Source of the DNA: Candidatus Pseudothioglobus singularis PS1
GTDB lineage: Bacteria > Pseudomonadota > Gammaproteobacteria > PS1 > Pseudothioglobaceae
Length of the DNA stretch: 64,000 nucleotides
Reading direction: 5' to 3'
Assembly (NCBI RefSeq): GCF_001281385.1
Contig: NZ_CP006911.1
Location: forward strand, 496,001 to 560,000
Both the position numbers and the translations under genes were made by a program. A model generated the notes under the pieces. The model did not search any database, was not told the origin of the DNA, and was given only the letters and a program-made list of their open reading frames with translations. The number at the start of each line of letters is the position of its first letter. Within the stretch, counting starts at the first letter, position 1. This document shows, piece after piece, positions 28,303-31,123 of this stretch.

Positions 28303-29715
28303 TTAGTACTTATAGGCCTCTGGTTTAAAAGGGCCTTCCTTAGGCGTATTGATGTATTTTGCTTGCGTATCCGTTAAGACAGTCATAACACCACCGAAGC
28401 CACCTACCATTCCAGCCGCTACTTCTTCGTCAAGTTTCTTAGGGAGAAGCTCGACAGAAACATTAGCAGGTTTCTGGTCTTTTGGTAAGTCAGCAAATTT
28501 ATTACTATAAAGATGCATTTGTGCTAAAACTTGGTTTGCAAATGAGCCATCCATAATTCTAGAAGGGTGTCCAGTTGCATTTCCTAAATTAACTAAACGA
28601 CCTTCTGAAAGAAGAATTAAGTAATCATTTTTATCATCAGAGCGATAGATGCGATGAACTTGCGCTTTCACTTCATCCCATTTCCAATTTTTACGCATGT
28701 ATGCTGTATCAATTTCATTATCAAAGTGACCAATATTACACACTACAGAGCCTGCTTTGAGGTATTGAAGCATTGAAGCATCACAAACATTAGTATTTCC
28801 AGTCGTTGTGACAATTAAATCAGTGTTGGCTAGTAAATCTTTATTGATACAATCTACAGAACCAGTATTGATTCCATCAATATAAGGTGAAACCACTTCA
28901 AAGCCATCCATGCACGCCTGGAAAGCACATATAGGATCAATTTCAGAAATTTTAACAATCATTCCTTCTTGACGAAGTGACATGGCAGATCCTTTACCAA
29001 CATCGCCATAACCAATCAATAAGGCCTTCTTGCCTGACATAAGCATATCCGTACCTCGCTTAATAGCATCATTAAGAGAGTGCCTACAACCATACTTGTT
29101 ATCATTTTTTGCCTTAGTAACAGCATCGTTTACATTGATAGCAGGAACTTTAAGTTCACCACTCTCAATCATCTCTAAAAGGCGATGAACACCAGTCGTT
29201 GTTTCTTCACTGATACCATGAATTTTATCAAGCATTTCTGGATACTTATCATGGACCATGCCCGTTAGATCACCGCCATCATCAAGAATCATGTTGGCAT
29301 CCCATGGCTTACCGTTATGAAGAATAGTCTGCTCAATGCACCACAAGAACTCTTCTTCAGTCTCACCTTTCCAGGCAAATACAGGAATATTTCTTGCTGC
29401 CATAGCAGAAGCAGCATGATCCTGTGTCGAAAAAATATTGCAAGATGACCAACGAATTTCAGCTCCAAGATCAATTAATGTTTCCATTAGGACCGCAGTT
29501 TGGATTGTCATATGAATACAGCCCATAATTCTTGCGCCTTGAAGAGGCTGCTCTTTGCTGTACTTTTCTCTAAGAGCCATTAATGCAGGCATTTCAGCTT
29601 CTGCAAGCTCAATTTCTTTACGACCAAAATCTGATAAATTAATATCAGCTACTTTGTAGTCAAGGTTTAGATCGGCTACTTTAAAGCCACTATTATCTAT
29701 TGTAGAATCGCTCAT
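28303..29715 (-). CDS. ahcY: Adenosylhomocysteinase (SAH hydrolase)
   Basis: 470 residues, the length of proteobacterial enzymes. It splits S-adenosylhomocysteine into homocysteine and adenosine with bound NAD, relieving product inhibition of methyltransferases. Landmarks are [20 protein letters not shown], the substrate segment [14 protein letters not shown]-like (here [18 protein letters not shown]), [19 protein letters not shown] and the NAD motif [19 protein letters not shown], plus the C-terminal [10 protein letters not shown] with its Lys and Tyr. An SAH riboswitch occupies the leader and an intrinsic terminator ends the unit. It lies directly downstream of metK. Confidence 0.97.
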
Positions 29716-29740
29716 TTTATTTCCCGTTAAGTTAAAAAAA

Positions 29741-29803
29741 TGAGCGTCGTTTTGATTACCAAGCCTGATTGAAAAAATATTTTCAATGCAACGCCCCTTG
29801 GCA
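29741..29803 (-). ncRNA. SAH riboswitch in the ahcY leader
   Basis: On the minus strand the leader folds as the S-adenosylhomocysteine riboswitch. P1 is CCAAG (29797-29801) with CTTGG (29759-29763). The conserved core GGGCGTTGCA is at 29787-29796. P2 is TTGAAAA/TTTTCAA with a four-base loop (29769-29786), and CAGG is at 29764-29767. The downstream strand GACGCTC (29742-29748) pairs with GGGCGTT to make the H-type pseudoknot, with two or three G-U pairs. Known SAH riboswitches turn ahcY on when SAH binds. It starts about 10 bases after a TATAAT box and ends about 25 bases before the ATG. The match in order, spacing and sequence is good. Confidence 0.88.
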
Positions 29804-29811
29804 CGAGACGC

Positions 29812-29839: not shown

Positions 29840-30973
29840 CTATTTTAGTAAATCTGCTCTATCAGTCTTCTCCCAGCTAATTGAGTCTTCTTTTCTCCCA
29901 AAGTGACCATAACTCGCAGTCTGCTGATAAATTGGACGTTTTAAATCTAGCATTGCAATTAAACCTTTAGGGCGAAGATCAAAATGCTCTCTGATAAGAG
30001 CAACAATTTCATGATTTGGTAGCTCTCCAGTTCCAAATGTGTCAACGCTTATACTCGTTGGTTCAGCAACTCCAATTGCATACGAAACTTGAATTTCACA
30101 GCGCTTAGCGATGCCAGCTGCAACAATATTTTTAGCAACATAACGTGTAGCATAGGCAGCACTTCTATCTACTTTTGAAGGATCTTTGCCTGAAAAAGCA
30201 CCACCGCCATGTCTAGCCATGCCGCCATATGTGTCAACTATAATTTTTCTTCCAGTTAGTCCAGCATCACCAACCGGACCTCCAATTTCAAAATTTCCTG
30301 TTGGGTTTATGTGATATTGCGTCTCGCTTGTAAGCCACTTTTCAGGAAGGATTGGCTTAATAATATTTTCTAAAACACTCTCTCTAAGCTCCTCAAGTGA
30401 GATGTCTCCATCGTGCTGAGTAGATAAAACTACAGCGTCAATACCTACAATTTGATTACCCTCATAGATGCAAGAGACTTGAGATTTAGCGTCTGGACGA
30501 AGCCAAGGTATCGAGTCATCTAGCATTAAATCTGCTTGCTGCCTGACTAATTGATGTGACAGCATAATGGGGGCTGGCATTAGCTCTTCTGTTGAATTTT
30601 CTGCATAACCAAACATAAGGCCTTGGTCACCTGCGCCTTGCTCATGACTATCACTTTCGGTGACACCCATTGAAATATCTTGAGACTGCCTGCCAAGCAA
30701 ATTCATAACTGAACATGTTTCACCATTGAATCCATACTCTTCTTGGTTATAACCAATTCCAAGAATTGTTTTTCTGACTATAGATTCATAATCTATATTA
30801 GCATCAGTTGTAATTTCTCCAGCTAAAACGACTTGATTGTCTTTGACAAGTGTCTCTACAGCAACTCTAGAGTTAGGATCTTGATTAAGTGCAGCATCAA
30901 GAATGGCATCAGAAATTTGGTCACATACTTTATCGGGGTGGCCAGCAGAAACAGATTCAGAAGTAAATATCAT
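29840..30973 (-). CDS. metK: S-adenosylmethionine synthetase
   Basis: 377 residues. MetK makes SAM from methionine and ATP. Landmarks are [21 protein letters not shown] at the start, [12 protein letters not shown] near residue 115, [21 protein letters not shown] near 225, and [20 protein letters not shown] near 250. The mRNA leader carries a SAM-II-like riboswitch at 31028-31092 and a TAGGA ribosome-binding site 9 bases before the ATG. Its product is consumed by several methyltransferases in this window (MiaB, RlmE) and SAH is recycled by ahcY downstream. Confidence 0.97.
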
Positions 30974-31027
30974 AATAAAATCCTATAAAATTATTTAATA
31001 CTAAAGATGGATTTCTTGAAAGAGAGG

Positions 31028-31092
31028 CCAGCTTTAGCTTGTTTTAGTCACACAATGTAACAACGCTAGCAATCGGAACAAATCAGCGTTAA
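31028..31092 (-). ncRNA. SAM-II-like riboswitch in the metK leader
   Basis: On the minus strand, AACGCT (31085-31090) and AGCGTT (31062-31067) form P1. The enclosed loop reads GATTT, seven variable bases, TTGC, matching the SAM-II core GCUGAUUU-N7-UUGC-N-AGC in both sequence and length. The downstream conserved AGCTAAA follows (31032-31040) with GG at its end, the strand that folds back as a pseudoknot. The linker before AGCTAAA is longer than in the standard SAM-II, and I can pair only about three bases of the pseudoknot (CCG/UGG). SAM-II elements lower expression of methionine and SAM genes when SAM is high. Position ahead of metK strongly supports the call. Confidence 0.68.
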
Positions 31093-31095
31093 TTA

Positions 31096-31123
31096 ATTAT
31101 AATCTTTAACTTGGAAAAGTAAA
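31096..31123 (-). promoter_or_regulatory. Promoter of metK
   Basis: A perfect TATAAT (31096-31101) on the minus strand ends 5 bp before the P1 stem of the metK riboswitch. TTTACT, a four of six -35 match, lies 16 bp upstream (31118-31123), just after the ccmB stop codon. Confidence 0.55.

Follow-up and report, generated by a model that had tools for sequence, protein, structure and literature searches.

The leader of the S-adenosylmethionine synthetase gene metK in the window (the whole stretch of 64,000 nucleotides that was analysed, G000:C1:496001-560000 of a 1.71 Mb gammaproteobacterial chromosome) contains an aptamer of the SAM-II type, which, judging from sequence comparisons, very probably acts as a SAM-sensing OFF switch that puts metK under feedback control; the direction of control, OFF, can be predicted with nearly the same confidence. 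The SAM-II-like riboswitch controlling metK that was proposed in the initial annotation is well supported by the presence of the element in 74 of 83 genomes, by covariation and by an invariant pocket. We consider it an even chance that the element is an intermediate between SAM-II and SAM-V aptamers (a SAM-II core with a P3 hairpin of the SAM-V type), which became fixed on metK through the whole family and changed its expression platform once, from termination to sequestration of the Shine-Dalgarno (SD) sequence, inside one genus, so that a single orthologous riboswitch could be compared in its ancestral, eroded and rewired states.

The gene order on the minus strand is ccmA-ccmB, promoter, aptamer, metK, SAH riboswitch and ahcY, with the following features:

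31096-31123, minus strand: sigma-70-type promoter TTTACT-16-TATAAT (-35-like TTTACT at 31123-31118, TATAAT at 31101-31096)
31028-31089, minus strand: SAM-II-type aptamer, whole (full-length, sub-threshold match to RF01726; 85.9 bits with model R1, the window being one of the sequences from which R1 was built)
31085-31089, minus strand: P1 5' strand ACGCU (100% paired in 39 leaders)
31063-31067, minus strand: P1 3' strand AGCGU (pairing in the 39-leader alignment)
31079-31084, minus strand: third strand GAUUUG, expected in the major groove of P2 (AUUU invariant, 39/39)
31068-31076, minus strand: pseudoknot 5' strand CCGAUUGCU, comprising P2a CC(G), the AUUG pocket and P2b GCU (P2b 99%, P2a 94% paired)
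31047-31061, minus strand: P3 hairpin GUUACAUUGUGUGAC in the linker between P1 and the pseudoknot 3' strand (covariation, 97.4% of cells paired)
31028-31040, minus strand: pseudoknot 3' strand AAGCUAAAGCUGG, including the SAM-contacting UAAA (GCUAAAG invariant)
31000-31010, minus strand: anti-pseudoknot segment CCAUCUUUAGU (pairs with 31038-31028 as helix P5, 10 bp with one mismatch)
31009-31014, minus strand: putative anti-SD AAAUCC (overlaps the 5' end of the anti-pseudoknot segment; kept in L002 and L015)
30978-30984, minus strand: SD sequence AGGAUUU (read from the sequence)
29840-30973, minus strand: metK, S-adenosylmethionine synthetase, the regulated gene (TIGR01034, 578.5 bits, cut-off 309)
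29735-29805, minus strand: SAH riboswitch before ahcY, companion element (RF01057, 45.8 bits, above the cut-off)
28303-29715, minus strand: ahcY, adenosylhomocysteinase (TIGR00936)

The genes of the SAM cycle metK and ahcY thus each have a riboswitch of their own, in tandem. The core, GCUGAUUU-GUUCCGA-UUGC-U-AGC at 31087-31065 and AGCUAAAG at 31039-31032 of the minus strand, was found with its flanking P1 where the initial annotation had located them; of the "perfect 6-bp P1" the helix stands, while the count is five Watson-Crick pairs, or up to seven with the terminal A-U and G-U pairs included. The distances given there also agree with our reading: the aptamer, described as lying directly behind TATAAT and some 50 nt ahead of the start codon, begins 6 nt past the former and ends 54 nt ahead of the metK ATG (30973). 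Transcription would start at about 31090, i.e. with the first bases of P1, and the SD sequence (30984-30978) sits 44 nt past the pseudoknot strand.

Comparison with relatives revealed that the element is conserved before metK in this group. Among 70 metK loci gathered, 66 possess the core, and 39 distinct leaders were aligned. The covariance model R1, built from relatives' metK leaders, identified a strong copy in 74 of the 83 genomes of the order (Thioglobaceae/Pseudothioglobaceae), with a single strong match in each, located before metK wherever the leader is readable. An exact TATAAT occurs no more than 30 nt 5' of P1 in all 72 distinct family leaders whose start could be read, compared to 8.5% expected by chance. 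In a pattern scan of named genomes, 56 of 58 core matches fell into Candidatus Thioglobus, Pseudothioglobus, SUP05 and PS1 bins, Vesicomyosocius, Ruthia, Ruthturnera, thiotrophic symbionts of Bathymodiolus, or proteobacterial bins that are apparently alike. The initial annotation had staked its proposal on the conservation of the core bases in related metK leaders, and the 39 aligned sequences bear it out: AUUU, AUUGC and AAGCUAAAG are invariant (with two of these A fully or almost fully conserved).

The alignment also provides evidence for the helices. Over all of them 97.9% of the cells are paired, and slid registers pair in 17-44% of cells. P3, which the initial annotation had missed together with the downstream alternative pairings, shows substitutions in both partners of each of the five counted pairs. 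Double-changed cells number 40 against 12 expected, and none of 500 shuffles, which leave the kinship of the sequences in, reached 40. Double changes are found in P1 as well; P2 is nearly invariant, so its pairing comes without proof by covariation.

Several further leaders and matches deserve mention. The metK leader of L062 (G001) retains TATAAT, AUUGC and AAGCUAAA-AUAGG and has lost P1 and the GAUUU strand, which is apparently a decayed copy, and that of L067 (G060) shows no trace of the element. L064 (G012) carries a metK only 60% identical to that of the window, in the same assigned genus and without a riboswitch, and is probably a contaminant contig or a transferred gene. Five weak R1 matches inside the family (E 0.01-0.05), considered as second copies, revealed no convincing aptamer core on reading. 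Outside the family, two pattern matches to the P3-bearing core (L180 from Rufibacter and L181 from an alphaproteobacterial bin) have no methionine gene nearby and no Rfam match and look like chance. The weak R1 matches L076, L077 and L079 at the class level, with no obvious adjoining methionine gene and no Rfam match, were treated likewise, while L075 (metZ) and L078 (metN) turned out to be ordinary SAM-II elements. L078 (G230) is a sub-threshold SAM-II before the methionine transporter genes metN/metI, with a core (GCUGAUUUGUUCCCGGAUUGC) close to that of the window.

In most relatives the aptamer is followed by an intrinsic terminator about 20 nt past the pseudoknot strand, with a stability of -4 kcal/mol or better in 50 of 72 leaders, compared to 2 of 72 shuffled ones. 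The pseudoknot strand (CUAAAGC-GG) can pair with the 5' half and loop of this terminator (ACCC-GCUUU, CCUGCUUUAG and similar sequences), following the logic of an antiterminator; the pairing is strong in the window's genus g1 and weak outside it (z mostly between -1 and +1). Additionally, a segment right after the aptamer (e.g. GUUCUUCU) pairs in a fixed register with the SD sequence (AGGAGAAC), with 8.98 of 13 positions paired compared to 8.56 after re-dealing of the partners (0/2000 in a permutation that leaves kinship in) and with compensated C-G to U-A changes at offset 4. Terminator and anti-SD together fit a SAM-off switch that acts on transcription, with a second block on translation. 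We propose that transcription begins at the aptamer and that P1 and the pseudoknot P2 would form around SAM, the linker from P1 to P2 carrying P3, a hairpin specific to this lineage. When SAM is bound, GCUAAAGC(A/U)GG would stay in the pseudoknot, allowing the terminator to form, and the mRNA resulting from read-through would have its SD sequence paired with the segment just after the aptamer; when SAM is absent, the same strand could pair with the terminator's 5' half and loop. The initial annotation suggested that the control mechanism may differ from the standard one. In most relatives it does not, as a terminator with an anti-SD is an ordinary SAM-II platform; the suggestion is more pertinent to the window's own clade, which has no terminator and seems to be controlled at translation by a new pairing.

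This clade comprises eight species (L001-L007 and L015, including the window) that possess neither the terminator nor the ancestral anti-SD helix. The metK tree places them together on one branch (99% SH-aLRT), with terminator-bearing relatives around it, so that a single loss is sufficient. All eight have a P5 complement of the pseudoknot strand (z from -2.0 to -5.5; in the window the duplex reaches -10.5 kcal/mol, z -4.6), and P5, together with P1 and P3, dominates the unconstrained minimum-energy fold of the window leader. The sequence AAAUCC (in L001, L002 and L015), adjoining or inside the P5 complement, can pair with the SD sequence AGGAUUU. We consider it most likely that, after the single loss of the terminator and the ancestral anti-SD, this stronger downstream complement took over: without SAM, P5 would form and leave the SD sequence open, and MetK would be made; with SAM bound, P5 could not form, and the freed complement would let AAAUCC sequester the SD sequence. 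On folding up to the AUG, the unpaired fraction of the SD sequence averages 0.09 in the clade when the pseudoknot strand is masked (i.e. held in the aptamer) and 0.55 when P5 is formed, and the corresponding values for the window are 0.23 and 0.68; with 27 more coding bases, the window values are reversed (0.55 masked, 0.23 with P5 formed), and for this reason the translational control step in the window, although the most likely reading and slightly more probable than not, is not established. L005 shows no SD opening on folding. In full-leader folds the accessibility of the SD sequence hardly differs between the bound and free states, and the full-leader thermodynamic model was rejected as a proof of switching, since it does not clearly separate them.

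It is rather unlikely that the same aptamer still controls transcription in this clade, with P5 and a U-rich sequence serving as the terminator, or with Rho acting after occlusion of the SD sequence. The idea is prompted by L004, in which U8 comes immediately after the P5 complement CUUUAGC, and by L005, with a U10 tract a few nucleotides later; P5 of these two species could itself be a weak terminator of opposite logic, which, taken literally, would form without SAM and make an ON switch. However, a SAM-ON switch on metK would amount to positive feedback, contrary to the known SAM-II examples, and the window leader possesses no terminator-like site: its P5 encloses a loop of more than 15 nt and is followed by AUUAAAUAAUUUUAU, with no U tract. 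SD sequestration is our preferred reading for the window's clade.

With respect to the identity of the aptamer, the crystal structure of SAM-V revealed that U47 and A50 hold the ligand and that two uridines of the U20:A48.U9 triple, U9 and U20, lie opposite the sulfonium; according to the same paper, the mode of SAM binding in SAM-II is practically the same (PMC6061858). The SAM-V contacts U8-U10, A18-G21 and U47-A50 correspond to columns 13-15, 22-25 and 72-75 of our alignment, where the pocket bases UUU, AUUG and UAAA are present and invariant in 39/39 leaders; in the window, U31082-U31080 are the counterparts of U8-U10 (contact positions according to PMC6061858). These identities point to SAM as the ligand. 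That the aptamer recognises SAH or, like a known variant of a SAM riboswitch, a polyamine in place of SAM, or that it recognises SAM and SAH both, appears very improbable: the neighbouring SAH riboswitch shows that SAH matters at this locus, and a spermidine class derived from a SAM aptamer is reported (PMC10853860), but every SAM-contacting base of SAM-V, including the two sulfonium-facing uridines, is invariant here, and the gene encodes a SAM synthetase.

The standard Rfam thresholds overlook the element. RF01726 (SAM-II long loops) aligns over its full length to 31095-31024, with 16.5 bits against a cut-off of 44 (E = 4 in 1.1 kb); it is the Rfam riboswitch family that matches the window and 6 of 20 relatives in full length, with a maximum of 27 bits among the relatives. 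In the genome-wide search RF01726 gave nothing at E 0.001, and no match passed the threshold for the element. RF00521 did not match the element, and SAM-V (RF01826) was absent among the window matches up to E 10. The covariance-model scoring suggested in the initial annotation hence yields a sub-threshold SAM-II alignment and no SAM-V match. The stability of the window leader does not exceed that of shuffled sequences (z = -0.76), so the single-sequence case is weak and Rfam by itself is insufficient as proof. Nonetheless, a chance resemblance in an AT-rich leader, compatible with such scores, is practically refuted by the covariation, by the invariant core and by the presence of the element in 74/83 genomes.

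In the 39 leaders, P1 and P2 (the latter formed by the P1 loop and the 3' strand) pair as an H-type pseudoknot. P3 does not occur in SAM-II, while in SAM-V it comes directly after P1 and is followed by adenines that dock into P1 (PMC6061858). Here, the covarying P3 directly follows P1 and precedes UAAAACA and AGCUAAA, as in the SAM-V layout (docking of the adenines into P1 is putative), whereas the SD sequence is not found at P2a. The linker between P1 and the pseudoknot 3' strand, correctly described in the initial annotation as longer than standard, is 20-38 nt long compared to a constant 12 nt in canonical gammaproteobacterial SAM-II (27/27 measured), because it houses P3. The pseudoknot was described as weak, and P2a indeed consists of only 2-3 pairs; however, this is normal for translational metX SAM-II and for SAM-V (PMC6061858). 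The element appears to work like SAM-II and SAM-V, stays formally under the thresholds of both families and mixes features of both; it is placed between them because it has P3 as in SAM-V, but a P1 of SAM-II length and no SD sequence in P2a.

Among the known systems, RF01726 (Bacteroidetes, marine), the best Rfam riboswitch match, shares with the element the core GAUUUG...GAUUGC...GCUAAAGC, but its consensus shows no P3, its P1 sequence and hosts differ, and the element scores only 16.5-27 bits against its cut-off. SAM-II/SAM_alpha RF00521 (alphaproteobacteria and many GTDB Gammaproteobacteria) has the same P1, third strand and H-type pseudoknot, and a terminator platform as in most family members, but canonical gammaproteobacterial SAM-II exhibits AGCUUGC in place of GAUUGC, has a 12-nt linker that lacks P3, and lies before metZ in most cases. 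SAM-V (metY/bhmT of Ca. Pelagibacter) is similar in its pocket, in its short P2a and in the placement of P3, which lies between P1 and the pseudoknot strand with an A-rich stretch behind it, but it has a P1 of 4 bp and the SD sequence at P2a, not ~44 nt downstream. The metZ and metA SAM-II of Sinorhizobium meliloti (PMC9373788) are also SAM-off switches, with terminator (metZ) and SD sequestration (metA) platforms, but these are canonical aptamers on two different genes, whereas here one orthologous leader changed its platform. Finally, the SAM-SAH riboswitch RF01727 (Rhodobacterales metK) is also a small element before metK, but it has a different consensus and responds to SAH too, and no RF01727 match was found here.

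The view of the initial annotation that SAM-II is unusual in a gammaproteobacterium had to be rejected. Of 369 genomes sampled from the class, 30 have an RF00521 match above the cut-off (E 0.01 is reached in 135), with the GTDB class Gammaproteobacteria taking in the former betas, and a 2009 paper already listed Alpha-, Beta- and Gammaproteobacteria (PMC2704228). Most of the 30 best RF00521 loci lie before metZ/metY-like genes, and three (L099, L112 and L118, from one other family) before metK; L099, a canonical SAM-II before metK with an SAH riboswitch just downstream of metK, has the layout of the window. Canonical SAM-II before metZ (L090-L119) is widespread in GTDB Gammaproteobacteria, although a 2014 regulon survey (PMC4239095) had named Rhizobiales and Rhodobacterales as the only orders with SAM_alpha. 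The family-specific trait is the P3-bearing form on metK.

In the open-access papers searched, no earlier report of the element was found for Thioglobus, SUP05 or the symbionts of Bathymodiolus. With this element, SAM-II-type control extends to an abundant marine family (SUP05/Thioglobus, Pseudothioglobus, and the symbionts of clams and mussels), and there to the very gene that makes SAM. P3 bridges SAM-II and SAM-V and bears on the question whether they form one family, and with eight sister species in which the terminator was lost once and the pairing rebuilt, the evolution of an expression platform can be tested directly on short synthetic RNAs.
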